A DNA stretch of 64,000 nucleotides from Aquiflexum lacus (GTDB lineage: Bacteria > Bacteroidota > Bacteroidia > Cytophagales > Cyclobacteriaceae), in contig NZ_JABFHF010000022.1 of the NCBI RefSeq assembly GCF_015476655.1, forward strand, positions 1 to 64,000, given 5' to 3'. The position numbers and the translations under genes are program-made. The notes beneath the pieces are model-generated. The model had not been told where the DNA came from and made no database searches. It saw nothing but the letters and a program-made list of their open reading frames with translations. Shown piece by piece: positions 3,552-64,000 of the stretch (position 1 is its first letter; each line of letters starts with the position of its first letter).

Positions 3552-4273
3552 CTCCTTCTGATCAAAACTCCGGTAAGGCCCAACATCAGGATAATCACTG
3601 TAAGAAAGTACGCCACATTTCGGGCTTCTATCACTCCCCTACTCAGACTTTGGTAATGGTAACTCAAACTCATTTCCTCCAAAAACAAAGCAAATGGACT
3701 CATCACCTGCAATTGTACCAAGGCTGTCAGACCAAAATACAATAAAAATGAAATAAAAATGCCCCATATAAATGCCACGATCTGATGTGAGGTCAAAGCG
3801 CTGCTGAAAATACCTATCGAAGCAAAGACTGCCCCCATAAACAACAGGCCTATCCATGAACCAAAAAAACCCGCATGGTCAATGTTTCCAACAGGGTCTC
3901 CTAATTGCACCACCGAATAGTAATAAACCAAAGTCGGGATCAAAGCCACAAAGATCAAAGTTATTGAGGCGAAGTACTTGGCCAAGATGATTTTTCGAAT
4001 GCCCAATGGTGAGGTCATCAATAACTCCCAGGTACCGGTTTTCTTTTCCTCCGATATCATCTTCATGGTAATGGCAGGGATCAGAAAAGTAAATACAAAA
4101 GGCGTGTACACAAAAAGCGGTTCCAGATCAGCAAAACCATATTCCATGACAGCTGTATCCGGAAACACCCAAACTATCAGGCCTAGGGAAACAAGGAAAA
4201 CGCCCAAGATCAGGTATCCGCTGACATTGCTGAAGAAAGCATTTACTTCTTTCCAATACAGTGCTCTCATCAA
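3548..4273 (-). CDS. gldF: gliding motility ABC transporter permease GldF
   Basis: The 241-residue integral membrane protein is an ABC-2 type permease with about six hydrophobic segments, including an N-terminal one after M-R-A-L-Y-W-K-E. The motif T-M-K-M-I-S-E-E-K-K-T-G-T-W-E-L-L near residues 70-86 is characteristic of GldF and of the NosY-like ABC-2 permeases. It sits between gldA and gldG, overlapping each by 4 bases (ATGA-type junctions), so the three form one translationally coupled unit encoding the complete transporter. The substrate of GldAFG is not known. Confidence 0.93.
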   Translation of the reverse strand: MMRALYWKEVNAFFSNVSGYLILGVFLVSLGLIVWVFPDTAVMEYGFADLEPLFVYTPFVFTFLIPAITMKMISEEKKTGTWELLMTSPLGIRKIILAKYFASITLIFVALIPTLVYYYSVVQLGDPVGNIDHAGFFGSWIGLLFMGAVFASIGIFSSALTSHQIVAFIWGIFISFLLYFGLTALVQLQVMSPFALFLEEMSLSYHYQSLSRGVIEARNVAYFLTVIILMLGLTGVLIRRR

Positions 4274-50530: not shown

Positions 50531-51622
50531 CTAAACAAACGGTTCCTGCTGACTCAGACAGTGAAACGAACCCAAGCCCCATATCAGGTCCAAGGAATTG
50601 ACCCCCACCACTTTTCTGTCCGGAAAACAGGAAGTCAGGATTTCCAAAGCCTTATCGTCATTCTTATCCTGAAAAGTAGGTACCACCACAGCATGGTTGG
50701 AGATATAAAAATTCGCATAGGAAGCAGGCAATCGCATATCTTCGTGGATAATTTCCCTTGGCATCGGCAGTTCCACAATATTCATCTGCTTCCCATTTTC
50801 CAACCTCATTTTGTGAAGTAGATCAAGGTTCTCTTTTAGTGGAACATAATTTTCATCTGCTTTATGGTGTTCTACCATGGTTACCACCGTATCCGCATTG
50901 ACAAACCTTGTCAGGTCATCGATATGCCCATCAGTATCATCACCTACGATGCCATCATTGAGCCAAAGGATATTTTCTGCGCCATAATAACCCTGTAAAT
51001 ATTCTTCAATCTGCTTTTTGGAAAGATGTGGATTCCTATTGGGATTGAGCAGACAAGCTTCTGAGGTGAGCAATGTTCCTTTGCCATTAAATTCTACCGA
51101 ACCACCTTCCATGACAATCCCAGACTTGAAGCAAGGAACTTTTCTAAATTCTGCAATTTTGATCGGAATCTGATTGTCCAAATCATAGGGAGGATATTTA
51201 TCTCCCCATGCATTGTAATCCCATTTGACCAGAACCTTCTTGGTGTCTGCCTCGGCATTGATCAAAAAAGCCGGACCATGGTCCCTGCACCATGCATCGT
51301 TGGTAGGGGAAAAATGAAAGAAAATTTTATCCAAATCCACCCCAGCCCCCTCAAGATGCCCCAAAGCAAATGCCTTCATTACTTCATCTTTGACATTGAT
51401 ATGAACTTCTTCGCCTAAAGCCACATATTTTATAAACTCAGCATAAGCAGGAAAAATGGTGTTGATTTTTCCAGGCCAGGAAGCCTCTTTATGAGGCCAA
51501 CTCAGCCAAGTCGCCGAATGAAGTGCAAATTCCGCAGGAAAAGAATAACCCAATTGGAAAGGGGTAACTTCTCCAGACTTTGCAATTTCGAAAATGTCTT
51601 TGGTGTAAATATTAGTCTTCAT
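50531..51622 (-). CDS. aguA: agmatine deiminase
   Basis: The 363-residue enzyme of the peptidyl-arginine-deiminase-like family converts agmatine to N-carbamoylputrescine. Family blocks are visible: W-L-S-W-P-H (about 40-45), F-S-P-T-N-D-A-W-C-R-D-H-G-P (about 103-116), V-M-E-G-G-S-V-E-F-N-G (about 170-180) and a catalytic cysteine in the C-terminal G-S-F-H-C-L-S-Q-Q (about 352-360). The ATG at 51622 overlaps the aguB stop by 11 bases. Together they make putrescine from agmatine; the arginine decarboxylase is not in this window. Confidence 0.93.
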   Translation of the reverse strand: MKTNIYTKDIFEIAKSGEVTPFQLGYSFPAEFALHSATWLSWPHKEASWPGKINTIFPAYAEFIKYVALGEEVHINVKDEVMKAFALGHLEGAGVDLDKIFFHFSPTNDAWCRDHGPAFLINAEADTKKVLVKWDYNAWGDKYPPYDLDNQIPIKIAEFRKVPCFKSGIVMEGGSVEFNGKGTLLTSEACLLNPNRNPHLSKKQIEEYLQGYYGAENILWLNDGIVGDDTDGHIDDLTRFVNADTVVTMVEHHKADENYVPLKENLDLLHKMRLENGKQMNIVELPMPREIIHEDMRLPASYANFYISNHAVVVPTFQDKNDDKALEILTSCFPDRKVVGVNSLDLIWGLGSFHCLSQQEPFV

Positions 51623-52487
51623 CAATGAACCTCTTGAGGATGGGGGAATAGGAATCAATGCGTCTGTCTCTCAAAAAAGGCCAATGGGTTCTGTACCTAT
51701 CAGAATTCTCCATATCCAATTCATGGACATAAACCTCCTCTTCCCCATGATCCGCTTGATATAAAACCCTACCAAAGGCATTGGTCACAAATGACCCTCC
51801 CCAAAACTTCATGTCTCCTTCAACGCCTACCCTATTGACAGAGATTACCGGAACACCATTAGCCACTGCATGGGAACGCTGAATGGTTTGCCAAGCCTGA
51901 TATTGCTCATCATTGGTTTCCAGATCCTGATCCTTATGCCAACCAATAGCGGTCGGGTAAAAAAGCATCTCTGCTCCCATGAGCGATGTGACCCTTGCTG
52001 CCTCAGGATACCATTGATCCCAGCAGATCAATACTCCTATTTTAGCAAACTTGGTGTTGAATACCTTATAGCCCAAATCTCCTGGCGTAAAATAAAACTT
52101 CTCATAATATCCCGGATCATCAGGAATATGCATTTTCCGGTATTTGCCGAGATAACTTCCGTCAGCATCCAACACAGCGGTTGTATTATGATAAAGGCCC
52201 TCTGCCCTTTTCTCAAAAAGCGAAGCAATGATGACCACCCCAAGTTCTTTGGCGAGAGCGGAAAAAAAATCAGTGGATGGTCCGGGAATATTTTCCGCCA
52301 ATTTAAAATTATCATGATCCTCCACATCACAGAAATAAAGGGATTTGAAAAGTTCCTGTAGACAGATGATTTGCGCACCTTTTTGGGCGGCTTTTCTTAC
52401 TCCTTCTCCTGCTTTCGATAGGTTTAATTCTAGATCAGGACTACAGGAATTCTGGACCAACCCTACTTTAACGGTTCTTTTTGACAC
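51612..52487 (-). CDS. aguB: N-carbamoylputrescine amidase
   Basis: The 291-residue carbon-nitrogen hydrolase splits N-carbamoylputrescine to putrescine, CO2 and ammonia. The catalytic triad regions are present: glutamate in C-L-Q-E-L-F (about 40-45), lysine in K-Y-R-K-M-H-I-P-D (about 115-123) and cysteine in L-I-C-W-D-Q-W-Y-P-E-A (about 152-162). It precedes aguA in a two-gene unit, with overlapping reading frames. Confidence 0.93.
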   Translation of the reverse strand: MSKRTVKVGLVQNSCSPDLELNLSKAGEGVRKAAQKGAQIICLQELFKSLYFCDVEDHDNFKLAENIPGPSTDFFSALAKELGVVIIASLFEKRAEGLYHNTTAVLDADGSYLGKYRKMHIPDDPGYYEKFYFTPGDLGYKVFNTKFAKIGVLICWDQWYPEAARVTSLMGAEMLFYPTAIGWHKDQDLETNDEQYQAWQTIQRSHAVANGVPVISVNRVGVEGDMKFWGGSFVTNAFGRVLYQADHGEEEVYVHELDMENSDRYRTHWPFLRDRRIDSYSPILKRFIDED

Positions 52488-52697: not shown

Positions 52698-53078
52698 TCA
52701 ACCTAAAATTATTTTCAAATCTTCTGAGCTTAGCGGTTTGTGTATAAATTTTTTTATAAAACCATACTGATTCGCCCTCGATATATCATTATGATCTGTT
52801 GAAGACGAAACCAAATAAATTGACAGGTCTTGAATATTGTATAAGTTGTTTTCTTCTAATTTATTTAGAAACCCCCAACCGTCCAAAACCGGCATGTTAA
52901 TGTCTAACAACACAATTATCTTTAATGGTGATTTTTGGAAAGAACTTAAAAGTTTTAAACCCTCCTCCCCATTTTCACATTCATGACATACTTGTGAAGG
53001 AAAGTTTCTTTTTATCATCTTTTGGACTATCAACCTATATATCAGGTCATCATCAATTATGCATATAATTTTCTCCAT
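52698..53078 (-). CDS. single-domain response regulator
   Basis: The 126-residue protein is a stand-alone receiver domain: acidic pocket I-I-D-D-D (about 7-11), phosphoacceptor Asp59 in V-L-L-D-I-N-M-P, conserved serine-threonine switch in V-S-S-S-T (about 90-94) and lysine in F-I-H-K-P-L-S (about 106-112). There is no output domain, so it probably passes phosphate on or acts by protein contact. It is the last gene of the signalling operon, 11 bases after the preceding one. Confidence 0.9.
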   Translation of the reverse strand: MEKIICIIDDDLIYRLIVQKMIKRNFPSQVCHECENGEEGLKLLSSFQKSPLKIIVLLDINMPVLDGWGFLNKLEENNLYNIQDLSIYLVSSSTDHNDISRANQYGFIKKFIHKPLSSEDLKIILG

Positions 53079-53089
53079 ATACCAAGAAA

Positions 53090-54103
53090 TTAGAGGTCAA
53101 AATTCTGGGCTTCATCAACTATTTTTTTTACGATATCATCCATTTCATTCATTGATGTTCTGAGTTCTTTTAACCAGAACATCATATCATCTAGATTTTC
53201 ATGGTGTTCTTCAATTAAGTTGATAATTCCTAAAATTCTTGAAAGTGGTGCCCTGACCACATGTGACTGAGTCCACGCAATATTCTTTAGTTTTTCATTT
53301 TGTTGTTCAATCGTTTTGACATGATTTAAGATGGTTGTTATGTCAGTAGCCTGAACAATGATTCCTTTTCTGCCTGTATTGTAAGTTATTTTTTTTGTAG
53401 ATAACTCTACATTGATTTCCTGACCGTCTTTTCTCAGTTGTGTAAACTGATTATTAACATTATAAGCAGGATTATCTACAAGTTTTCCTATTAAAACATC
53501 TCTTTCCCAGGCTGGGTGTAAATCCAAAATAGAAAGCGATAGGCATTCATCAAGCGAGTAACCGTACTTTTCAATTGTTGCTTCATTGACATCCAGAATC
53601 TTAAAATTTTCAGGGTGTAGCAGCCACATGGGCTGTGGGCTGAGGTTGAAAAGGTTTTTGTAATTTTCACGTTCTCCCTCCAATTGATTTCTGAAATTTT
53701 TTCTTGAAAGTGAGAAATCGATACTTTTTTGAAGTAAACTGGGATTAATTTCATCCTTAATCAAAAAGTCGTATATACCCAATTCCAAGCTTTGCTTGGC
53801 AAGGTTTATATCAGCGTATCCTGTCAACACAATGATTGGTGCATCTTTACTGATTTTCAATACTGCATTGATGAGTTCAATACCGCTCAAATCCGGCAAG
53901 TTTAAATCCAGCAAGATTACATTGAATTGGCCTTCCTTTTGATTTAAATCATCAGCCGCGGTACTGAAATCAACACAATGTTTAATTTGTATTTTTTTAT
54001 AGGATTCGATTAACAAATCCTCTACCAAAATAAAGTCTCCCTCATTGTCTTCTATGACCATAACGGACAAATTATTAGGCTTCATATTTTTTGGGTTATA
54101 CAT
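53090..54103 (-). CDS. receiver-PAS-DHp protein without ATPase domain
   Basis: The 337-residue protein consists of a receiver domain (I-E-D-N-E-G-D at about 17-23, phosphoacceptor Asp66 in L-L-D-L-N-L-P), a PAS domain (about 145-260) and a dimerisation/H-box helix pair with His281 in Q-S-H-V-V-R-A-P-L-S-R. It then stops; no HATPase domain with N, G1 and G2 boxes is present. It could be a phosphotransfer adaptor, a substrate of one of the neighbouring kinases, or a dominant regulator. Its start overlaps the stop of the preceding gene (TAATG). Confidence 0.85.
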   Translation of the reverse strand: MYNPKNMKPNNLSVMVIEDNEGDFILVEDLLIESYKKIQIKHCVDFSTAADDLNQKEGQFNVILLDLNLPDLSGIELINAVLKISKDAPIIVLTGYADINLAKQSLELGIYDFLIKDEINPSLLQKSIDFSLSRKNFRNQLEGERENYKNLFNLSPQPMWLLHPENFKILDVNEATIEKYGYSLDECLSLSILDLHPAWERDVLIGKLVDNPAYNVNNQFTQLRKDGQEINVELSTKKITYNTGRKGIIVQATDITTILNHVKTIEQQNEKLKNIAWTQSHVVRAPLSRILGIINLIEEHHENLDDMMFWLKELRTSMNEMDDIVKKIVDEAQNFDL

Positions 54104-54543
54104 TATTTAGATAATACTGAAAGCTGCAACCAAAACTCTTCAATTTTTTGAATAGCTTCCATAAAGTCGTCCATTTCCATTGGTTTTTTCACATAACTGT
54201 TACAGTATTTTTTGTAAGCCATATCAATATCTTTCTGATTGGAGGAGGTAGTCAGCATAATTACCGGTATTTTTTTCAGACTCTCATTCTGCTTAATCTC
54301 TTCTAAAACTTCAAGCCCATTGAAGATGGGAATATTGATGTCCAGTAAAATCAAATCAGGTCTTTGAGCGTTGGAGAACTCACCTTTCTTGTGTAAAAAA
54401 TCCAAAGCTTCCTGACCATTTCTGGCAACACTAACATGTGTATGGAATTTACTCTCCTCAAATGCCTCAAGTGTGAGCAAAACATCTCCGTCGTTGTCTT
54501 CTACAAGAAGAATATGTGCTAATTTAAAATTCCTTGTTTTCAT
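54103..54543 (-). CDS. Rcp1-like response regulator
   Basis: The 146-residue single receiver domain begins F-K-L-A-H-I-L-L-V-E-D-N-D-G-D-V-L-L-T-L-E-A-F, the hallmark of the Rcp1 group. These regulators are partners of cyanobacterial phytochrome-type kinases and many PAS kinases. Phosphoacceptor Asp68 lies in L-L-D-I-N-I-P, with T-T-S-S (about 97-100) and lysine in V-K-K-P-M-E. It is 5 bases after the CheB-CheR-kinase gene. Confidence 0.9.
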   Translation of the reverse strand: MKTRNFKLAHILLVEDNDGDVLLTLEAFEESKFHTHVSVARNGQEALDFLHKKGEFSNAQRPDLILLDINIPIFNGLEVLEEIKQNESLKKIPVIMLTTSSNQKDIDMAYKKYCNSYVKKPMEMDDFMEAIQKIEEFWLQLSVLSK

Positions 54544-54548
54544 ATAGT

Positions 54549-57500
54549 TTAATTATTTTTTGCAATTGTAAAATAAAAAGTAGAGCCTTTCCCCAATGTG
54601 GATTCTACCCATATCCTGCCACCATGCAGCTCTACTATCTTTTTGCAAACAGACAATCCTATGCCATTGCTTTCTTTATTCGGTTTTAAAGATTGAAACA
54701 TCTTAAATATATTTTCAAATTGATTTTGAGGAATTCCAATGCCGTTGTCAGAGATTTGAAACTGAACCCCATTCTCAACATTTTTATTATTGATGCTTAA
54801 CAAAAGCTTATCATTGCTTCTGTATTTGATGGCATTACCTATTAAGTTATTGATTAAGCGCTTAAATATAATGGGGTAGACAGACAATTCCTTGACTGAA
54901 AGATCATATTTTATGGAATGAGTAATTTTATTTAAGTCTATCTGAAAAACTTCAATAACATCATGAAAAAAATCAGGGAGATTCACCACAACTGATTTCT
55001 CATTGGAGATCCCGGTTCTTGAATAATCAAGTAAATTATTGATCAACTTATCCATTTCAACAGATGAGGTTAGAATCACCTCAAAATACTTTTGCTTTTT
55101 TTCTTCCTCTAACAGATCTCCCTTCTTTTGGATCATTTGCAACAAAGATTTGATATTTCGGATTGGTGTTTTCAAATCATGAGATGCGATATAAGCAAAT
55201 TCTTCAAGCGATCTGTTCACCTCTTCCAGTTTCTTGAATTGTTCTTTGTTAATTTGACTTAGTCGGTAAATCTGATTGATATGGTCCTGATGCTCTGTGA
55301 TATCATTTTGTATGGAGAAGAATCCTATGAAATTTTCTTCTTTATCATATAGGGGTTCTGCTTTGATATTCACCAAATATTTATTGCCTGTTTTATGGTA
55401 ATTGATGATATCCACAGTGAATGCTTTTTTTGCCCGGATAGATTGGGACATCAATTCCACGAGTTTGGGATCCGTTTCCGGGCCCTGCAAAAAATCCCCG
55501 GGCTTCTTGCCCAAAACCTCGTTTTCGGTATATCCTGTCATCTTTTCAAAGGCATCGTTGACGAAGTTTATTCCACCTTCCCCATCTGTTATGATCACAG
55601 CACTACTGGTTTGCTCAGCAATCAGCGAGTTTTTGGTAAACTCAAATTCATTCAACTTCCGTTGGTGAACATCTCTGATTATCAACAAAAACTTCTGCTC
55701 CTGGGATTTATTTTGTTGGATGGGTTTGATGCTCGCTTCCAGCCATCTCAATACATTTTTGGCCTTTTTAAACTCAAACTCTACCAGACCGAGCTCTTGA
55801 TTTTTGTGGACATTTGAAAATGCTTTTTGAAAGATCTCCCTATGTCTAAGCTGTGGCATTTTTTCCAGAAAGTTTATATTATATAACTTATCTAAAGCGT
55901 ATCCGGTGACTTCAACTCCTGAAGGAGTACTGTATTCTATGGCTCCCTGTTGAGTTACAATGCAAACCATATCCCTCAGGTTGTTGGAAATCAACTTGAA
56001 AATTTCATCCTGATTTTCATGTTTCAGTTCCAGCTCCGAAAGAGCTTTCTCCGATACTTGAATAGCTTGCTTGAGCTTTTTGGCCTGTGTCAGGTCTACA
56101 AATACCAGCGTAATTCCCTGAACATCTTTTTTGTGGTTTCGGAATGGGGCTATTTTCAACAGATACTCTTTGCCCTTAATGTCTTCGATGGTGAACTCAT
56201 AAGAAACCGATTCAGCCAAAACCGCTTCAATATGCTCCAAAAAATTCTCCAAATGGATTTTAGCCCTGAAATGACTGATGTTTCTTCCTATATCATGGGG
56301 TACTAAATCCAAAATCTTTTTGATGGCAGGGGTAAATTTCCGTATATTCAGATTGGCATCTAAAAATAAAATGGCCAGCTCGGTGCTGTGAATCAGGTTA
56401 TTCAGATCATCATTGGACTGAGAAAGCTCATGGTTTTTCTGTTCATACTCAGCATTGACGGTATAGAGCTCCTCATTGACTGATTCCAGTTCTTCGTTGG
56501 AACTCTGCAGTTCTTCGTTTGTGGCCTGTAGTTCCTCATTGCTTGATTCCAGCTCCTCAATGGTCGTTTGCAAGGTCTCTCTATTGATTCTGAGTTCTCT
56601 TTCAAGGATATGGATTTTCTCTTTAGAGACCGTATTGATCGTTACATGCTCTGATGGGGATTGTTCAGGAGGCCTTTTCGAGGAAGTCTCAAAGGTAATA
56701 AACAGGTAATGCATGCCATCAAAAAGTTCTTTTTTACGGACAAGAATATTCATAAACCCACTTGCACCTACGAAAGCTCTGAACTCATCCGGTACCTGTA
56801 TATCCGTCAGGGTTACGGGCTTTCCAGACTGCAATACTTTATTGGCTACTACCTCCAGGGGAATGGCAATAGTATCAGGCAGCATCTTGGTGATATTGGA
56901 ACTGATCTCTCCCGAAGGCATGGTCAGCAGTCTGTGAGCATTGCCCGAACTGTGCAGCAAGTTCAACTGCTCATCAATGATGAGAGAATCCGGCACATAT
57001 TCCTGAATAAGGGAATGCTGTATTTCGCTCAGCAGGTTTTTTTTATTGGCTTTAAAAGCAGGAACGCTGTTGTCAAGATCGGAATTTGGTAATTTGTCAC
57101 TTACCTTTTGATTCCTCTTTTTGACGGAATGCAATCGCTGGACAAACTTCTTATTCTCTTTATTGACAAACAGGTTTTGTTTTTTGTTGAACTCAAAGAA
57201 ATCTTCCCTGGCATCGCCCAGCGTTTCACTGGATCCCAAAAACAGGAATCCGTTGGTTCGCAAAGAATATTGAAAAATGGTAAAAAGCTGCTGTTGGATC
57301 GAATCAGTAAGGTAGATCAGGAGGTTTCTGCAACTGATCAAATCGATTTTATTAAAAGGAGGATTCTGGATTACGTTGTGGACCGAAAACACAATCATTT
57401 CACGGATTTCCTTTGCTATGGCATAACCGTTTTTTTGGGAGACAAAATAAGTGTTCAGGTATTCTATGGGTATTTCAGCGCTGATATTGTTTGGGAAAAC

Positions 57501-58553
57501 GCGACTTGCAGCCAATTTTATGGCTTCTTTGTCCAGGTCTGTGGCAAAAATATTGACTTCATATTGTAGTTTGTTTATCCTAAGATGATCTTTGATCAAT
57601 ATGGCAATGGAATAGGCTTCTTCCCCTGTAGAGCAACCCGGTACCCAAACCCTAAGGGTCTTTGAGTCCGAATTGTTTTCGATCATTTTAGGAATCACCT
57701 GAGTTTTAAGGGCATTGAAGGCCTCTTCATCTCTGAAAAAGCGGGTAACGCCTATAAGCAGTTCCTTGGCTAAAAGCTGGGCTTCATTTTGATTGTTTTG
57801 CAGGTGGTTGTAATAAGCATCCATTTTGGTGTAATCCAGAATACTCATTCTCCTGCTGATCCTTCTCGAAACGGTAGTATGCTTATATCCGGTGAAATCT
57901 ACATCAATTTGTTTTTCTACACTTCGTAAAATACTTGTGATTACAGCGTTGGCTTTGGAAGAATTGTTGAAGTTTTGTGAAATGGTATCGCGGTTTTCAA
58001 AAAAACGGTCAATCTCCTGATGCATCGTTTCCACCCGGCAAACCATGTCAACGACACCGGAATAAATGGCACTATTGGGCATGCCATTGAATTTGGCCTG
58101 CTGAGGGTCCTGTACCAATACCAGTCCTCCGTTTTCTTTGATGAATTTTATCCCCTTAGATCCGTCACTTCCCGTACCGGACAGGATGATGGCACAAGCC
58201 TTTTCGTGAAGATTTTCCGCTAATGAAGCAAAAAAATCACTGATCGGAAAGCTTAGGGTTCTGTCTTCTTTTTCAGTCAAAACGAATTTTCCATCCTCAA
58301 TCTCCACAAACTTTTTGGGAGGGTTGAGGTAAATATTTCCCTTTTCAATTGACATGCCATCCTCAATTTTTTGGATGGGAAGCTTGGTGTGCCTTGAAAG
58401 CAACTCGTCCATCAGGCTTTTGTGATTGGGGGCCAGGTGCTGAATAATCACAAAAGCATATTTTGATTTGGGGTTGGCATGTTCAAAGAAAACTTCAAGC
58501 GGCTCCAACCCTCCTGCTGAAGCTCCTAAAGCTATGATTGGAAATGTATGCAT
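54549..58553 (-). CDS. CheB-CheR-PAS-histidine kinase fusion
   Basis: The 1334-residue protein begins with a CheB methylesterase domain whose triad is visible (Ser12 in G-A-S-A-G-G, His39 in Q-H-L-A, Asp130 in G-S-D-G). A CheR methyltransferase follows (about 205-470; V-W-V-P-G-C-S-T-G-E-E-A-Y-S and N-P-P-F-N-K-I-D-L-I-S-C-R-N). Then come a long E-L-E-S-S-N-E-E-L-Q coiled coil (about 640-720), several PAS domains, and a kinase core with His1125 in S-H-D-L-K-T-P and the ATP site D-N-G-I-G-I ... G-I-G-L. CheB-CheR-PAS proteins with and without kinase parts are known; the substrate methylated here is unclear, since no chemoreceptor gene is nearby. It is preceded immediately by the kinase gene at 58554. 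Confidence 0.93.
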   Translation of the reverse strand: MHTFPIIALGASAGGLEPLEVFFEHANPKSKYAFVIIQHLAPNHKSLMDELLSRHTKLPIQKIEDGMSIEKGNIYLNPPKKFVEIEDGKFVLTEKEDRTLSFPISDFFASLAENLHEKACAIILSGTGSDGSKGIKFIKENGGLVLVQDPQQAKFNGMPNSAIYSGVVDMVCRVETMHQEIDRFFENRDTISQNFNNSSKANAVITSILRSVEKQIDVDFTGYKHTTVSRRISRRMSILDYTKMDAYYNHLQNNQNEAQLLAKELLIGVTRFFRDEEAFNALKTQVIPKMIENNSDSKTLRVWVPGCSTGEEAYSIAILIKDHLRINKLQYEVNIFATDLDKEAIKLAASRVFPNNISAEIPIEYLNTYFVSQKNGYAIAKEIREMIVFSVHNVIQNPPFNKIDLISCRNLLIYLTDSIQQQLFTIFQYSLRTNGFLFLGSSETLGDAREDFFEFNKKQNLFVNKENKKFVQRLHSVKKRNQKVSDKLPNSDLDNSVPAFKANKKNLLSEIQHSLIQEYVPDSLIIDEQLNLLHSSGNAHRLLTMPSGEISSNITKMLPDTIAIPLEVVANKVLQSGKPVTLTDIQVPDEFRAFVGASGFMNILVRKKELFDGMHYLFITFETSSKRPPEQSPSEHVTINTVSKEKIHILERELRINRETLQTTIEELESSNEELQATNEELQSSNEELESVNEELYTVNAEYEQKNHELSQSNDDLNNLIHSTELAILFLDANLNIRKFTPAIKKILDLVPHDIGRNISHFRAKIHLENFLEHIEAVLAESVSYEFTIEDIKGKEYLLKIAPFRNHKKDVQGITLVFVDLTQAKKLKQAIQVSEKALSELELKHENQDEIFKLISNNLRDMVCIVTQQGAIEYSTPSGVEVTGYALDKLYNINFLEKMPQLRHREIFQKAFSNVHKNQELGLVEFEFKKAKNVLRWLEASIKPIQQNKSQEQKFLLIIRDVHQRKLNEFEFTKNSLIAEQTSSAVIITDGEGGINFVNDAFEKMTGYTENEVLGKKPGDFLQGPETDPKLVELMSQSIRAKKAFTVDIINYHKTGNKYLVNIKAEPLYDKEENFIGFFSIQNDITEHQDHINQIYRLSQINKEQFKKLEEVNRSLEEFAYIASHDLKTPIRNIKSLLQMIQKKGDLLEEEKKQKYFEVILTSSVEMDKLINNLLDYSRTGISNEKSVVVNLPDFFHDVIEVFQIDLNKITHSIKYDLSVKELSVYPIIFKRLINNLIGNAIKYRSNDKLLLSINNKNVENGVQFQISDNGIGIPQNQFENIFKMFQSLKPNKESNGIGLSVCKKIVELHGGRIWVESTLGKGSTFYFTIAKNN

Positions 58554-59762
58554 TTATTTCTGTTTTTTTATCTCTATAAAGAAGGTGCTACCTTTGTCTT
58601 TTTCTGAGGTAACCCAGATTTTTCCGTTCATTCTTTCAACCGTTTTTTTAACCATAGAAAGACCCATTCCCGTACCCTCATATTCTCCGGAATTATGTAA
58701 TTGTTTAAACATCACAAATACTTCTTGATATTTTTTTTCAGGAATACCAATGCCATTATCTTGGATTGCAAGTGTGAATAATTGGTCGTTTTCTGATACT
58801 TCAATTGATATTTTTGAAGTCCTACCTTTGGGTACAAATTTGATACTATTTGAAATTAAGTTTTGAAATACTTGTTGATATCCTGTAAAAGAACCTTTTA
58901 CAATGGGTAATTTTACACTAATGATTTCAGTTTTACTCTCTTTTATTACAGTTTGTAATATCTGTTTGACTTCTGATAAAACATTATTGAGATCAACTGT
59001 TTCATCTATAACTATATTGCCGGCTTTATGGTATTCCAATAACCCAGTCAACATTTTACTGAGCCTTTTTGCTCCTTCTGAAGCAAACTTCAGGTAACGC
59101 TGTCCTTTTACATCTAAATGATCAACATATTTCCTTTGAAGTAGGCCCAAAAAAGATCCCACCATTCGCAAAGGTTCCCTTAGATCATGAGAGAGTGAAT
59201 AAGCCAACAGTTCCAGATTTTTATTCACAGTATTAAGTTCATTATTCAACAGCTCTATTTTTTGGTTTTTACGCATCATCTCTCTTTTGCTGTTGATCAA
59301 TTCATTATTCAGGGATGAAAAGTCATTCAATAAAAACTCATCCACTTCATATTTATTGACTTTTCTTTCGAAATTGTCTGCTTTTTTCTCTACGAGCCGT
59401 ATTTTGTTTGCCTGTTCATTGTTTATTAACATTATTTCTTCCAAAGCTTTTTCGGAAGAATTCATATCAGTTCTTCCGCATATCAATACCTTATCATTGA
59501 GCAGATAGCCCGAAAAATTAAAAATTATATTTTCTCCTTGATTATTTAGACCTACTAAATAGTGCTCCTCCTCCATCATATTTTGTTTGATTGAAAGCCA
59601 AAAATCTCCCAATACATTGATAGATGATTTTTCAATGATTTGATGAATACCAATTGGTAAATCAAAGTTTTCCAATATTCCGGCAGTGTCAAGAAATACT
59701 TGAACAATCGTTCCGTGATGATTACAGGAAAACATTATTTTATGTTCTTTGATAGTGTCCAT
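58554..59762 (-). CDS. histidine kinase downstream of the B12 protein
   Basis: The 402-residue soluble kinase has an unassigned PAS-like N-terminus (about 1-105), a coiled-coil linker (about 105-185), a DHp with His192 in S-H-D-L-R-E-P-L-R and an HATPase domain (N box I-S-N-S-I-K-F, G1 D-N-G-I-G-I, G2 G-T-G-M-G-L-S). No membrane segment is present, so it senses something in the cytoplasm. Its start is separated by a single base from the stop of the B12-binding protein gene, the closest candidate input partner. Its stop touches the start of the next gene. Confidence 0.9.
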   Translation of the reverse strand: MDTIKEHKIMFSCNHHGTIVQVFLDTAGILENFDLPIGIHQIIEKSSINVLGDFWLSIKQNMMEEEHYLVGLNNQGENIIFNFSGYLLNDKVLICGRTDMNSSEKALEEIMLINNEQANKIRLVEKKADNFERKVNKYEVDEFLLNDFSSLNNELINSKREMMRKNQKIELLNNELNTVNKNLELLAYSLSHDLREPLRMVGSFLGLLQRKYVDHLDVKGQRYLKFASEGAKRLSKMLTGLLEYHKAGNIVIDETVDLNNVLSEVKQILQTVIKESKTEIISVKLPIVKGSFTGYQQVFQNLISNSIKFVPKGRTSKISIEVSENDQLFTLAIQDNGIGIPEKKYQEVFVMFKQLHNSGEYEGTGMGLSMVKKTVERMNGKIWVTSEKDKGSTFFIEIKKQK

Positions 59763-59763
59763 A

Positions 59764-60816
59764 TCAGTTAGAAATCAGTTCATTAGCTTTTTTTATGGCT
59801 TCATCTGCATTTCGTGCAAAGCCGTCAGCACCCACTTTTTTCCAGAGATTCGGATTGGTAATAAAAGGATAGCCACCCACCATTATTTTTAGGTTCTCGA
59901 ATTCATCTACATTTTTAAGATTATTGATCAATGCAACAGATTTACTCACATGGGTAGGCAGGGTCACCGAAAGTGCCAGAATATCGGCTTTATATTCTTT
60001 TAAGGCTTTCGGCAGTTGATCTTCGGGAAGGTTAGCGCCAAGATAATAGGTATCCCATCCGTCCATCTCAAAAAAATCAGTTACCATACGGATTCCAAGT
60101 TCATGCAATTCACCGCTAATAGAACAAGCCACCAATGTTTTGCCGTTGCGATTAGTTGAAAAAATATGAGCGTACAATCCTGACATGATTTGTTGGGTTG
60201 CAGCAGTACAATAATGTTCGTGCGCTACTGTAATTTTATTGCATTGCCAAAGCCGTCCGATTTCGTATTGGGATATTTGAAAAATCTGTTGATATATATC
60301 TTTTATGGACGTTTCTTTCGAAATCAGATCAGAAATCAATTGATAGGCCTCATGCCTTTTACCATTTAATAAATAGTCAAGATACATGGTCACTTCATCT
60401 TTTAAAGGATTTTCATCGGTAATAAATGAACTGACTTCTTCTTTTTTTTCTAAAAGTTTTTCTCTGGCATTGTTGATATAGTCTTTTGTAACATTTGAAA
60501 AATCACTGCCCAGTATTTCATGAATCGCGATTTGAACAAAATCCAGGTTGTTTAGAAGGTCTGTATCAGGGATATTTCTTGATTTATGCATAGTTTCAGC
60601 CCAAAGAATATAATTTGCATACATCTCGGGAAGCTCCATTGCCAATGCTTCTGCTAAAAAATTGAGATGATTGACAGCATCTTGTCGGCATTGGGTTTTT
60701 CCTTCCGGACTATAACGATCAGATACTGAAGGATCATGCTTGAAATGCAATTCCGAAATATAATCAGAAAGCTCATTAGAACTTTCATAAATTTTTTTAA
60801 CGTTAAATGATTTCAT
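59764..60816 (-). CDS. stand-alone B12-binding protein with CarH/LitR-like light-sensor motifs
   Basis: The 350-residue protein has about 130 residues of helical, unassigned sequence. A four-helix cap follows (about 140-215) with W-x9-E-H (Trp190, Glu200, His201), and then a B12-binding Rossmann domain with G-E-L-H-E-L-G (axial histidine His238), Y-Y-L-G-A-N-L-P (about 257-264), A-L-S-V-T (about 281-285) and V-G-G-Y (about 313-316). The W-x9-E-H plus E-x-H-x-x-G combination is the signature of CarH/LitR adenosylcobalamin photoreceptors. There is no MerR DNA-binding domain. I infer that it reports light or B12 status to the kinases encoded around it. Confidence 0.85.
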   Translation of the reverse strand: MKSFNVKKIYESSNELSDYISELHFKHDPSVSDRYSPEGKTQCRQDAVNHLNFLAEALAMELPEMYANYILWAETMHKSRNIPDTDLLNNLDFVQIAIHEILGSDFSNVTKDYINNAREKLLEKKEEVSSFITDENPLKDEVTMYLDYLLNGKRHEAYQLISDLISKETSIKDIYQQIFQISQYEIGRLWQCNKITVAHEHYCTAATQQIMSGLYAHIFSTNRNGKTLVACSISGELHELGIRMVTDFFEMDGWDTYYLGANLPEDQLPKALKEYKADILALSVTLPTHVSKSVALINNLKNVDEFENLKIMVGGYPFITNPNLWKKVGADGFARNADEAIKKANELISN

Positions 60817-60881
60817 AACTAACTACTTATATGTTCATATTTGCTGATTATTGCGATCATAATTTTTTGTTAAAATGAAAG

Positions 60882-62477
60882 TTAATTGACATAGACTATT
60901 TGATTTTTTGCAATCGTAAAATAAAATGTACTTCCTTTACCCGGTTCTGATTCAACCCTGATTCTACCCCCGTGATTTTCCACAATCTTTTGACAGATTG
61001 CAAGACCAATTCCGGTACCTCTGTATTCCTCCTTGTTGTGCAGCCTTTGGAAGATTTTAAAAATTTTATCAGAATATTCCGGTTTAATACCAATGCCGTT
61101 ATCCTTTACCTCAAAGTGCCAGAATTCCTCATCCTCGTTTGAGGTAATTTTTACTTCTGGATTACTTCCCTTTATTTGGTATTTAACTGCATTATTTATC
61201 AGATTCTGAAAAAGCTGTCGCATAGGCGCTCTTGCACCATTGATTTCAGGCAGTTTCTCAACTTTAATAACAGCTTTTTGCTCATTAATCAATATTTCGT
61301 TTAATCCAAGTGCTTCCTGTACCAGATCATTCATATCGATATCTTCCTTTTCAATTTCAACACGCCCAATTCTGGAATACTCTAGCAGGTCGTGAATAAT
61401 TTGCCGCATACGCTTGGCCCCGTCAGTTGCAAAATGAATATATCTTTTGCCCCTCTCATCCAGCAGATGATCATATTTCCATTCTAACTTTGTCAGGAAG
61501 TTAGTAATCATCCGCAACGGTTCCTGCAGATCGTGTGAGGCTACATAAGCAAACTGTTCCAGTTCAGTATTTGAAGCGGCCAGTTCTTTGGTCTGGATTT
61601 CTAGCGAAAGATTCAGTTTTTCTAGGCACTGTTCAGACTCTTTACGCGTTGTGATATCATTGATTACCAAAATAAGCCCATTTTCATCTTCCTCTGAATA
61701 TTCGAACCGGGCTGAGGTAATACTTAAAATTTGAATAGTGTTGTGTTGTGTTTCTCTTTTGACTTCCAGCGCTTCACCTTCATCGTTGCTATAGGAAGTA
61801 TTAATGCTTTTTCTGAGATATTTTTCTAATTTATTACCTTCCTTGTGTTCAAAGAGATTTGAGAAAGTGGCTCCCATAACCTGAGATTCATTTTTTTCAA
61901 AAATGGATGTTGCTTCTTTATTCCATCCCAAAATTTTCCCTTGATTGCTCACGATAGCTATGCCTACAGGAGTAATATCCATCAGTTTATTGATGAATTG
62001 TTGATGGTAACTCTGTTTTCGGGACGAAACTATTGTAGAAATTTTTGAATTGGTTTCCGCAAGGATAGCCCGGTATTTAACTGCCTGCAGGCTCTCCTGA
62101 AAAATCTTCCCGAGATGCTCCCAGTCAGTTTCATGAAGACAAGTAACATTTGTGCCCATAAACGGTGAAAAACGGATGGCCTCTTTAAGGTTTTCGGTAA
62201 TTTTTTCTGAGGGGCTCAGCAGGACGATTTTTGCATTTTTATTAAATGAATGAAGACGCTGGGCACTCTGTATAGGGTCTGCTACATCACTGCCTATAAT
62301 AAATGCTACAACCTCTCCTTGGAATGGCATTTTCTTCAGATCACCGAATGTTTTGATCGAGGCTACCTGTTTACATTCCCCGTCAACTATATCTGATAGT
62401 TGTTGTACAAGATCATTGTTTTCCGTCTGGATCAGATAGATATACTCTTGTTCTGCTATGGCCGTCTTCCTTGTCAT
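60882..62477 (-). CDS. PAS histidine kinase with receiver-like N-terminus
   Basis: The 531-residue soluble kinase has an N-terminal segment resembling a degenerate receiver (about 10-110; I-Y-L-I-Q-T-E-N, I-I-G-S-D-V-A, K-I-V-L-L-S-P). A PAS domain follows (about 155-280), then a coiled coil, a DHp with His315 in S-H-D-L-Q-E-P-L-R, and an HATPase domain (I-N-N-A-V-K-Y, D-N-G-I-G-I, G-T-G-I-G-L-A). The DHp/HATPase part resembles kinases of the phytochrome type. It lies 20 bases after the acyl-CoA dehydrogenase gene and about 65 bases before the B12 protein gene. Confidence 0.9.
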   Translation of the reverse strand: MTRKTAIAEQEYIYLIQTENNDLVQQLSDIVDGECKQVASIKTFGDLKKMPFQGEVVAFIIGSDVADPIQSAQRLHSFNKNAKIVLLSPSEKITENLKEAIRFSPFMGTNVTCLHETDWEHLGKIFQESLQAVKYRAILAETNSKISTIVSSRKQSYHQQFINKLMDITPVGIAIVSNQGKILGWNKEATSIFEKNESQVMGATFSNLFEHKEGNKLEKYLRKSINTSYSNDEGEALEVKRETQHNTIQILSITSARFEYSEEDENGLILVINDITTRKESEQCLEKLNLSLEIQTKELAASNTELEQFAYVASHDLQEPLRMITNFLTKLEWKYDHLLDERGKRYIHFATDGAKRMRQIIHDLLEYSRIGRVEIEKEDIDMNDLVQEALGLNEILINEQKAVIKVEKLPEINGARAPMRQLFQNLINNAVKYQIKGSNPEVKITSNEDEEFWHFEVKDNGIGIKPEYSDKIFKIFQRLHNKEEYRGTGIGLAICQKIVENHGGRIRVESEPGKGSTFYFTIAKNQIVYVN

Positions 62478-62497
62478 ATTACGTTATTAAACATTCA

Positions 62498-63664
62498 TTA
62501 ATTTCCTAAAAGCGGCAGATTCAGCAGGGCTCTTCCTGTCCATGTTCTTAACTGGTGAGTAGTTGGAGCCATTACATGGGAGGCCCGTGCATCCCGCAGG
62601 TGTCGGGAGAGTTTTCCCTCTTGTGCATATGCGGTTCCACCCATCAGGGTCATTACCTCATTTACCACATTCACCACACAATCGGATACTTCTGCTTTGG
62701 CACTTAAAATAGAAAGCAGCGCTCCTTCCTTCCCGGCATCACCTTTGGCTGCCGCAGAATAGATGAGCTGACGAGAGCGTTCCACCTTGGCCCACAAGAC
62801 ACCCAACTGATGCTGTAAAACCGGTTGCTCAGATAATGAAGTTCCGCTATGGGTATGAGAGCGATGCTGTAAATGTTGAATTGCCTCCTGCAAAGCTGCT
62901 GATGCGATACCCAGGTACGTTCCGGCCATGGCTGTAACAAAGTAGGGAGTAACTACTTCAAAGACATACCATATTTCATCACCCTGCTCACCAAGCAAAT
63001 TTTCAGCCGGGAGCTCTAGGTCTTTTATTTCAACTTTACGGGATGCGTTTCCCTTCATGCCGATTCCCTCCCAGGTTTCTTTCCACTCGATTCCATCTGT
63101 TTGATCGGGAACAACAATGCACGAAAAATGACCTATATGCGTATTCGGGTCGGGAATCACCGCAGAGACTACGTAAGAATCGGCATGGCTACCATTGGTG
63201 ACAAATGATTTTGTACCGTTTAAGATAAAATCTCCATTCTTCTTTTTAACAAGTTTGGCTTCAGGAATATAAAAATTGGAGCCTGTTCCCGGTTCACTTA
63301 ACGAGAGGGTGGTTAGATGTTTGCCTTGAGCGATAGGAATCAAAAATTTTTCTTCCTGCTTCGGGGTAGCTTTTGCAGTTAAAACGGCAGATGCTACCAG
63401 ATGCATACCAAAACACATAGAGGTGGATGCGCAGTGGCTGCCCATAATTTCACAAACTTTGGCGACACCCAATAGTCCCTGACCGTGTCCGCCAAGCCTG
63501 ACCGGAATAACCAGCCCGCCCAGACCTGCTTTTTGTAATGCCTGTATTTGCTTTTTCGGCCATTTGCCTGTTTTATCGACCTCATCCGCGCGGGGAGCAA
63601 GTTCATTTCGGGCAATTTCGCCTGTTAGTGTTAATATTTCATCCAATGACAATTTTTTATCCAT
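62498..63664 (-). CDS. atypical acyl-CoA dehydrogenase family flavoprotein
   Basis: The 388-residue protein has the family fold: N-terminal helices, the substrate/FAD segment L-S-E-P-G-T-G-S (about 116-123), the middle beta domain (about 125-225; F-V-T-N-G-S-H-A) and C-terminal helices with G-G-T-A-Y and R-D-A-R. At the place where many members have I-Y-E-G-T, with the catalytic glutamate, it reads V-M-A-P-T-T-H-Q-L. Catalysis must use another base, or the protein acts in a different flavin reaction. It is the first gene of the signalling operon, followed after 20 bases by a histidine kinase gene. Confidence 0.85.
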   Translation of the reverse strand: MDKKLSLDEILTLTGEIARNELAPRADEVDKTGKWPKKQIQALQKAGLGGLVIPVRLGGHGQGLLGVAKVCEIMGSHCASTSMCFGMHLVASAVLTAKATPKQEEKFLIPIAQGKHLTTLSLSEPGTGSNFYIPEAKLVKKKNGDFILNGTKSFVTNGSHADSYVVSAVIPDPNTHIGHFSCIVVPDQTDGIEWKETWEGIGMKGNASRKVEIKDLELPAENLLGEQGDEIWYVFEVVTPYFVTAMAGTYLGIASAALQEAIQHLQHRSHTHSGTSLSEQPVLQHQLGVLWAKVERSRQLIYSAAAKGDAGKEGALLSILSAKAEVSDCVVNVVNEVMTLMGGTAYAQEGKLSRHLRDARASHVMAPTTHQLRTWTGRALLNLPLLGN

Positions 63665-63697
63665 TATTCAACCTTTTTAATTAATTAAATCAAATCT

Positions 63698-63844
63698 TCA
63701 TCTAAACGCTTTAAGTAAAACTTCCCTCTGCCCTTTATCAATTGGAAAATAAAAGGTGCTGCCTAAGTTTGGTTTAGATTCCACATTTATTTTACAGTGT
63801 TCTGCAAAAACGATGTGCGCTAATTTTAACTTCTCTGCACCCAT
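63698..63844 (-). pseudogene. chimeric response-regulator/histidine-kinase remnant
   Basis: A 48-residue frame starts like an Rcp1-type regulator (G-A-E-K-L-K-L-A-H-I-V-F-A-E) and ends like a kinase G2 region (I-N-V-E-S-K-P-N-L-G-S-T-F-Y-F-P-I). No complete domain remains. It looks like the scar of a deletion that joined the start of a regulator gene to the end of a kinase gene. Confidence 0.55.
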
Positions 63845-63845
63845 A

Positions 63846-64000
63846 TTAATTGTTTTTAGATATTGTAAAATAAAATACAGTGCCTTCACCCACTTTTGAT
63901 TTAAGCCAAATTTCCCCGCCCAAATACTCCACACTCCGCTTGGCAATGGGTAGGCCAATACCATTACCATCATGCTGATTTCTGTTTTGTAATCTTTGGA
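63846..64000 (-). CDS. histidine kinase, C-terminal end (cut by window edge)
   Basis: The last 51 codons of a kinase are visible: D-G-N-G-I-G-L-P-I-A-K (G2 box), S-V-E-Y-L-G-G-E-I-W-L and G-E-G-T-V-F-Y-F-T-I-S-K-N-N, then a stop. The start lies beyond base 64000. It is in the same orientation as the rest of the signalling cluster and only 1 base from the chimeric remnant. Confidence 0.85.
   Translation of the reverse strand, partial: QRLQNRNQHDGNGIGLPIAKRSVEYLGGEIWLKSKVGEGTVFYFTISKNN

Follow-up and report, generated by a model that had tools for sequence, protein, structure and literature searches.

A probable photocobilin-type photoglobin-B12 sensor and its paired HKBn kinase in Aquiflexum lacus

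The output of CarH is DNA binding, and AerR acts through a repressor. A globin coupled to a B12 domain, dubbed photoglobin, was reportedly proposed by Schneider et al. in 2022 as a photosensor in prokaryotic signal transduction. The photocobilins SasPcob (8J2W/8J2X) and AbDPcob (8J2Y) combine a B12 domain with a globin-like bilin domain (Zhang et al. 2024, PMC10979010); among the reported groups, the B12 domain is located at either end, and in AbDPcob a fused cyclase provides the output of the B12 photoreceptor. Genes for the BBAG-2 globin, a B12 protein and a heme oxygenase have been reported as neighbors (Rockwell et al. 2023, PMC10151467). Here we describe a protein of this kind, PG-B12, encoded in a 64,000-nucleotide stretch of the Aquiflexum lacus genome (contig positions 1-64000 within an assembly of 5.9 Mb; hereinafter, the window). 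By sequence, PG-B12 is a photocobilin-type sensor consisting of a photoglobin domain followed by a B12 domain, the reverse of the order in SasPcob, and its gene is paired with that of a histidine kinase, HK-B. We consider it probable that PG-B12 is an adenosylcobalamin (AdoCbl) light sensor, originally with a bilin, that acts in trans on HK-B, the N-terminal domain of which is denoted HKBn. The features that carry this reading are the following (aa, amino acids):

59764-60816, minus strand: photoglobin-B12 sensor (PG-B12), 350 aa (Pfam, structure search, model)
60424-60816, minus strand: N-terminal photoglobin (phycobiliprotein-like) domain of PG-B12 (profile matches)
58554-59762, minus strand: HK-B, 402 aa, with HKBn, coiled coil, HisKA (H192) and HATPase (Pfam, model)

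PG-B12 resembles the photocobilins in the W..EH and E/DxH motifs, the globin-like bilin domain, the stand-alone character of the sensor and the retention of D46 and W72, but differs from the characterized ones in the reversed domain order, the separate kinase partner and a cysteine (Cys43) at the position of phycobiliprotein attachment, a residue absent from photocobilins according to PMC10979010. With CarH/LitR, it shares the residues of the AdoCbl pocket and the fold of the B12 domain; unlike these, it has no MerR DNA-binding domain and carries the additional photoglobin domain. The BBAG-2 clusters are similar to the PG-B12 loci in that a globin, a B12 protein and a heme oxygenase adjoin, but there the globin and the B12 protein are separate genes, neither a kinase partner nor an IsdG-like gene is named, and ChuW appears as an anaerobic analogue rather than as a neighbor (all from the excerpts of PMC10151467). 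Thus, photocobilin and photoglobin-B12 sensors, both domain orders, the cyclase fusion and the neighborhood of heme oxygenase, globin and B12 genes are already known. The sensor-HKBn kinase pair and the IsdG-like and ChuW-like neighbors appear to be new, not being described in the papers searched: neither PMC10979010 nor PMC11796333 uses the word “kinase” in its main text, nor does PMC10979010 use “operon” there, and neither kinase pairing nor a photoglobin with IsdG or anaerobilin is stated in any title or abstract start among the literature searched, although Schneider et al. 2022 may mention the kinase pairing.

Domains and chromophore-site residues of the sensor

The B12 half of PG-B12 (approximately residues 140-345) contains the Pfam domains B12-binding_2 (145-212) and B12-binding (228-341), which are the only matches above the cut-off; there is no MerR-type DNA-binding domain, as a first-pass annotation of the window, made from the sequence alone, had maintained. 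That annotation treated the protein as a CarH/LitR-like B12 module alone and overlooked the N-terminal domain. In a phmmer search against solved structures, the photocobilins came out on top (8j2y, 5e-20; 8j2w and 8j2x, 1.1e-18), with corrinoid enzymes behind them, and the first ~130 residues yielded only a weak second stretch matching the photocobilin C-terminal domain. A profile of the N-terminal domain built from 31 relatives (A4) matched allophycocyanin (3.9e-8), the biliverdin protein smURFP (4.7e-8), 8j2y (2e-6) and 8j2w (1.3e-4), and 21 of the 31 family members match the Pfam Phycobilisome family (2e-11 at best), the window's own copy giving no match. It is from these phycobiliprotein and photocobilin matches that the photoglobin-B12 architecture, and its reversal relative to SasPcob, follows. 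In the structure model of PG-B12 (pLDDT 92.8, pTM 0.88), the B12 part is closest to 8j2w_A (Z 26.8, root-mean-square deviation 1.7 A over 208 residues) and 8j2y_B (Z 26.4), followed by TtCarH (5c8e_F, Z 21.1); because the list of structural matches spans residues 135-350, the assignment of the photoglobin fold comes from sequence and not from that list. In two Hydrogenedentes loci (L132, 891-1301; L142, 3213-3977), a photoglobin-like domain is encoded by its own gene right after the B12-domain gene.

The published signature of the AdoCbl light response comprises GxxW, EH, GxxH and GxxxP (PMC11796333), and all four elements are present in PG-B12 (G187-W190, E200-H201, G235-H238 and G260-P264). 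The photocobilin motifs are recognizable as well: W190 is separated by nine residues from E200-H201, and E236-L-H238 fits (E/D)xH. Trp190, Glu200, His201 and the G-E-L-H-E-L-G motif (G235-ELHELG), which the first-pass annotation had taken as a mark of AdoCbl photoreceptors, are thus where it placed them. In an alignment of 124 sensor rows, which includes the window with its re-fetched copies and some genomes twice, W190 and H238 are found in 124 rows each, E200 in 123 and H201 in 122; given this near-invariance, the motif is not a chance occurrence.

In SasPcob, Asp270 holds the bilin and Trp296 turns its D ring (PMC10979010). D46 and W72 of PG-B12 align with these two residues (profile positions 37-104 on 8j2w chain 252-319, with the chain numbering calibrated via Trp61); the alignment with 8j2y shows His at the bilin-Asp site, matching what PMC10979010 reports for AbPcob. 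In the C43-R-Q-D46 motif of PG-B12, Cys43 occupies the attachment position of phycobiliproteins, and CxQD has been reported in photoglobins (PMC10151467). Among 64 de-duplicated rows (the window, its paralogue in the same genome and 62 of the 80 sensor loci introduced below), Asp is found at position 46 in 57, Trp at position 72 in 63 and Cys at position 43 in 26. The sensor relatives from Methanomicrobiales/Methanoregula form one clade (L106, L109, L113, L117 and L137), of whose members L109 and L137 have no Asp at the bilin site, and L117 and L137 no adjacent kinase.

Pairing with HKBn

A scan of genome contigs with the sensor alone yielded 90 confirmed loci, the best 80 of which constitute the set analyzed here; these are not independent, several coming from the same metagenome-assembled genome (MAG), for example, six Geobacteraceae loci from one assembly and three from another. 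After exclusion of four loci with <900 bases downstream, the next gene on the same strand encodes a kinase core and/or HKBn in 62 of 76 loci, HKBn being present in 56 of these. For the genes that follow control genes lying >3 kb away from the sensor, again within these loci, the corresponding counts are 30 of 458 (kinase) and 2 of 458 (HKBn). The tie between the B12 protein and a kinase, already proposed in the first-pass annotation, is thus supported. Conversely, of the 61 open reading frames (ORFs) encoding HKBn within the sensor-centered loci, 59 are either preceded by a B12 domain or fused to one. In genome-wide scans of two hand-picked sets, the profile of HKBn (A3) had matches in 22 of the 28 sensor-positive genomes and in none of the 34 sensor-negative ones; weaker positives (seven genomes of genus code g96, as well as B12-only or partial matches) were excluded, and all 23 matches lie 5-129 nucleotides (nt) downstream of the sensor.

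The output fused to HKBn varies: in five loci (L091, L093, L096, L111 and L140), HKBn is joined to GGDEF in place of the kinase, and in three (L161, L162 and L167), it carries no output domain, so that the constant partner of the sensor seems to be HKBn and not the kinase core. In the genome of A. lacus itself, a second sensor (64% identical) is directly followed by a second HK-B (53%) and by nothing else of the set, and of the same set, Lunatibacter salilacus (L070) and Pleomorphovibrio marinus (L072) likewise contain no more than the sensor and HK-B. Hence the conserved core is the sensor-HK-B pair, and the remaining genes of the window's run are a lineage-specific extension.

HK-B contains the expected kinase boxes (H-box from 187, N-box at 301, G1 box DNGIGI at 335 and G2 box GMGL at 365). 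For HKBn (about residues 1-130), no Pfam family was found, only scattered one-member matches (0.00068 at best), and no credible sequence match in PDB, one designed protein appearing with E 0.21. In the model of full-length HK-B, however, HKBn shows a PAS-like order of strands and helices, and the complete chain aligns end to end with the LOV-kinase 4gcz, a construct that we take to be YF1, mainly via the kinase part; HKBn is accordingly denoted PAS-like on the strength of the modeled strand-helix order together with the kinase-dominated, whole-chain matches to LOV kinases. HK-B shares with the 4gcz kinase the layout of a soluble sensor domain, a coiled coil and HisKA-HATPase, but differs in that the light sensing would reside in a separate protein. 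A helix motif, NNELxNxxREL, considered as a fixed feature of the HKBn partners, was left unused (23 of 58 partners vs 2 of 106 other kinase ORFs). Some loci of Ignavibacteriales and of one Bacteroidetes MAG encode a protein of ~155-188 aa next to the sensor or its kinase (L103, 9489-9956; L105, 9397-9963; L101, 5387-5854; L104, 12233-12697), with marginal VirK (PF06903) matches in L103 and L105, and L101 and L104 assigned by similarity.

Heme-opening-type neighbors, mechanism and signal

Another line of evidence, which bears on the ligand of the photoglobin domain, comes from the genes adjoining the sensor on the other side. Of the 62 photoglobin loci, the 60 with upstream room were used to count upstream genes, with iterated local profiles that were trained on sensor-adjacent genes and are therefore biased to those subfamilies. 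A gene for an ABM protein of ~98 aa lies directly upstream of the sensor in 17 of the 60 loci, namely, in 15 of 24 loci with Cys43 and 2 of 36 without it (Fisher p 2e-6, to be taken as a guide only because the rows are related). This protein matches Pfam ABM (1.5e-13), and its best NCBIfam scores are with the heme oxygenase and HmuQ models, IsdI scoring lower and all remaining below cut-off. Its profile produced 32 PDB matches, led by TT1380 (4e-15) and an unnamed monooxygenase (2.1e-12), with the heme-degrading Rv3592 (2.9e-12), HmoB (3.2e-10), IsdI (1.2e-9) and IsdG (2.2e-6) following and other ABM enzymes starting from 6.8e-6. W65 and H74 are invariant in the 19 rows of the profile (A5) and presumably occupy the positions of the IsdG-type heme-site Trp and His. 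The residue aligned with the invariant Ser6 of the neighbor is Asn7 in chain 4nl5_A; this chain was deposited as HmoB, but we take it to be MhuD, with Asn7 as the catalytic residue. Given the Ser at this site and the sub-cut-off NCBIfam scores, the protein is called only IsdG-like. Profile A5 matched 15 of the 28 sensor-positive genomes and one of the 34 negatives; 14 of the 15 matches lie 5-244 nt upstream of the sensor, those in G000 and G754 are partial, and the match in G367 is located away from the sensor and contains an internal stop.

Two further types of enzyme occupy the same place. In four loci of anaerobe-type Bacteroidota (L095, L098, L107 and L116), the upstream gene encodes a radical SAM enzyme for which ChuW/HutW is the best family in all four cases (TIGR04107, 255-292 bits, 79-125 bits above the next family); as the cut-off of 400 bits is not reached, these are called only ChuW-like. 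In seven loci from four assemblies, six of Geobacteraceae and one of Desulfosoma (L126, L127, L129, L130, L134, L135 and L141), a protein of 422-439 aa with a heme oxygenase domain is encoded upstream, with the B12-domain gene next to it; the domain was identified by Pfam in L134, L129 and L130 and by similarity in the others. The second half of this protein is photoglobin-like (hhalign probability 92.7%, 4.3e-7; 0.0012 to 1.7 with a single profile in six of the seven). In one more locus (L090), a divergent heme oxygenase gene adjoins the sensor. Altogether, 29 of the 80 loci (17 + 4 + 7 + 1) contain one of three unrelated enzymes of heme-opening type beside the sensor, and on a rapidly built tree comprising 82 sensors (with SH-aLRT as the sole support), the three types require 3 changes, compared with a mean of 10.9 after shuffling. 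The presence of these three enzymes favors a heme-derived bilin as the ligand of the photoglobin domain and would fit a bilin maker that is exchanged according to the oxygen regime.

The proposed mechanism puts together the domain make-up, the signature residues and the HKBn pairing, all seen in the sequences, with AdoCbl binding, a light response, contact with HKBn, a direction of the effect, receiver partners and, here, a bilin, which we infer. AdoCbl would be bound in the B12 domain, with His238 as the lower ligand and the adenosyl group held by Trp190, Glu200 and His201, and the photoglobin domain would be shaped for a linear tetrapyrrole. Light would break the Co-C bond, directly or, where a bilin is available, via the bound bilin, and upon departure of the adenosyl group, the four-helix part would shift and the dimer would change. 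In SasPcob, light removes the adenosyl group and splits the dimer (PMC10979010), and by analogy, the dark and light forms of PG-B12 may bind HKBn differently. Having no output of its own, the sensor would act in trans on HKBn of HK-B and, through the coiled coil, alter autophosphorylation of His192. If this is correct, a dedicated kinase controlled in trans by a B12(-bilin) sensor would bring this chemistry into two-component signaling, and the sensor and kinase could serve as a two-gene green/red optogenetic kinase.

Several observations weigh against this reading. The next gene is neither a kinase nor HKBn in 14 of the 76 loci; two of these are sensor-kinase fusions that themselves speak for the pairing (L147, B12-HKBn-PAS-PAS-HK; L092, PG-B12-PAS-HK) and in L110 the next gene is a kinase by Pfam, but the list also includes a PAS-HD protein (L146), an aldehyde dehydrogenase (L114) and a DUF3786 protein (L088). 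The HKBn profile was trained on adjacent partners, so that distant unlinked copies would escape it. Of the six sensor-positive genomes without a profile match, two (G453 and G415) have an HKBn gene that is diverged, only ~170 aa long and devoid of a kinase (compare the 173-aa gene in G522), and in four of the 28 (G367, G344, G303 and G402), no HKBn was found beside the sensor. The second sensor copy of A. lacus has Asn at position 46. The sensor family is also found in methanogens and Geobacteraceae MAGs, where light is no obvious signal. Finally, neither a PF01126 heme oxygenase nor an intact IsdG-like gene was found in the window's genome; its best ChuW-like match reaches 167.6 bits, vs 255-292 for the upstream genes, and was discarded as a candidate, 11 of 14 control genomes matching as well; and PF01126 is rarer in genomes with the sensor (2 of 27, the window's own genome being kept separate) than in those without it (12 of 34), on which ground canonical heme oxygenase was also rejected as the usual source of bilin in the Bacteroidota carriers.

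No heme-opening-type gene is located upstream of the window's sensor copy. The sole IsdG-like trace in the genome consists of the C-terminal 45 codons (L007, 9102-9239) directly upstream of the second sensor, preceded by a stop and lacking the first half, and the same gene is intact in Lunatibacter, Pleomorphovibrio and a Cyclobacteriaceae MAG (L071). With no visible source of bilin, and given Asn46 in the second copy, the use of a bilin in A. lacus is doubtful. The AdoCbl part of the proposal stands because the genome encodes a cob(I)alamin adenosyltransferase (9.6e-61).

The alternative with the best standing, to which we nevertheless give only about one chance in several, keeps the same sensor-kinase pair but replaces light with AdoCbl supply, oxygen, corrin redox state and/or heme breakdown products as the signal. 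This would accommodate the members from methanogens, Geobacteraceae and other anaerobe-type MAGs; the heme-opening-type neighbors fit a heme or iron signal equally well; and no light-regulated target gene was tied to the pair in this analysis. However, the light-signature residues W190, E200 and H201 (PMC11796333) are nearly invariant, and both characterized photocobilins are light-driven (PMC10979010), which argues for the light-sensing pair.

Extending the light-sensor reading beyond A. lacus, we tentatively suggest, as a conjecture we would not yet bet on, a three-part cassette found across several bacterial phyla: a tetrapyrrole maker exchanged by oxygen regime (IsdG-like, heme oxygenase or ChuW-like), a photoglobin-B12 sensor with AdoCbl and bilin, the latter perhaps covalently attached at Cys43, and an HKBn output (kinase or diguanylate cyclase) switched in trans, with the window's branch having lost the maker. 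In archaea, the sensor and the HKBn kinase are present with no heme-opening-type maker adjoining. If the cassette is real, the products of IsdG-type enzymes or anaerobilin would be photoreceptor chromophores, and anaerobilin, if used in anaerobes, would be a new photoreceptor pigment. The heme-opening-type neighbors make the tetrapyrrole of photoglobin testable in organisms without a classical heme oxygenase, anaerobes included.

The wider gene run

The pair belongs to a run of eight minus-strand ORFs, from 63664 down to 52698, with successive gaps of 20, 65, 1, 0, 5, -1 and 11 nt, in agreement with the tight one-strand run described in the first-pass annotation. The other members are:

62498-63664, minus strand: acyl-CoA dehydrogenase (Pfam)
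60882-62477, minus strand: HK-A, 531 aa, PAS-HisKA-HATPase kinase, adjoining the sensor gene upstream (Pfam)
54549-58553, minus strand: CheB-CheR-PAS-HisKA-HATPase fusion, 1334 aa (Pfam)
54103-54543, minus strand: single-domain receiver, Rcp1-like in the sense of the first-pass annotation (Pfam)
53090-54103, minus strand: REC-PAS-DHp protein, 337 aa, with the H-box SHVVRAPL and no ATPase domain (Pfam)
52698-53078, minus strand: single-domain receiver, 126 aa (Pfam)

Pfam confirms the domains that had been read from the sequence, with one correction: one of the three proposed receivers, the 337-aa protein, is REC-PAS-DHp without an ATPase domain (its HisKA match is sub-threshold in Pfam). Phosphate from HK-B might pass to receivers, perhaps those encoded at 54103-54543, 53090-54103 and 52698-53078, and the REC-PAS-DHp protein could act as an intermediate in the relay; the receivers are candidate targets only, because their genes are missing next to the pair in two of the three nearest relatives. 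The Rcp1-like regulator had been likened to the partners of phytochrome kinases; a phytochrome link was rejected after a search of the genome for the PHY domain, in which none was found (the control search matched one of 14 genomes, Deinobacterium).

The earlier model, in which the functional unit is a dedicated phosphorelay of eight genes built around a CarH/LitR-like B12 sensor with no further sensory domain, appears very improbable. The tight spacing of the genes speaks for it, as does L071, in which the gene order is the same from the sensor to the last receiver (after HK-B, a CheB-CheR kinase with 60% identity, a receiver with 71%, a REC-DHp protein of 212 aa as the counterpart of the 53090-54103 product, and a receiver with 50%). 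The sensor, however, possesses the N-terminal photoglobin domain, and the eight genes are not a conserved unit: next to the in-genome paralogue only the second HK-B is found, and Lunatibacter and Pleomorphovibrio have only the IsdG-like gene, the sensor and HK-B, so that the proposed order holds in one of the nearest relatives and is reduced to the pair in the other two. Weaker counterparts of the CheB-CheR kinase (38%) are located elsewhere in L116, L130 and L143. That PG-B12 is a corrinoid methyl-transfer protein (MtgC/MtbC-like) placed beside kinases by chance is the least credible option, for although MtgC (67.9 bits) and MtbC (65.0 bits) are its top NCBIfam scores, these are far under the cut-offs (370 and 350), the CarH-type adenosyl pocket is conserved, the photoglobin domain is present, and there is no corrinoid-dependent methyltransferase among the window neighbors.

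Across the 80 sensor loci, no counterpart (>30% identity, 60% coverage) of HK-A was found, and none of the acyl-CoA dehydrogenase, which was accordingly dropped as a component of the system (0 of 80) and is probably an unrelated insertion between kinase genes. Between the acyl-CoA dehydrogenase gene and the stop of the next kinase, a short frame (L006, ~3698-3845) resembles the C-terminal end of a kinase by reading of its translation, with no Pfam match there, which suggests insertion or decay. Running on past the end of the window (contig ~63846-72493; L006, 3846-12493), the operon is preceded by genes for two kinases and for a multi-PAS kinase of 1984 aa, again read from the translations. 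A comparable run, with a multi-PAS kinase and two kinases leading to the sensor and HK-B, is found in Balneolaceae (L075 and L079); the kinase that adjoins the sensor there is no counterpart of HK-A, and in L075, an IsdG-like gene precedes the sensor. On the same strand, ~210 nt past the receivers (50531-52487), the window contains agmatine deiminase-like and N-carbamoylputrescine amidase-like genes, so named from reading their translations.

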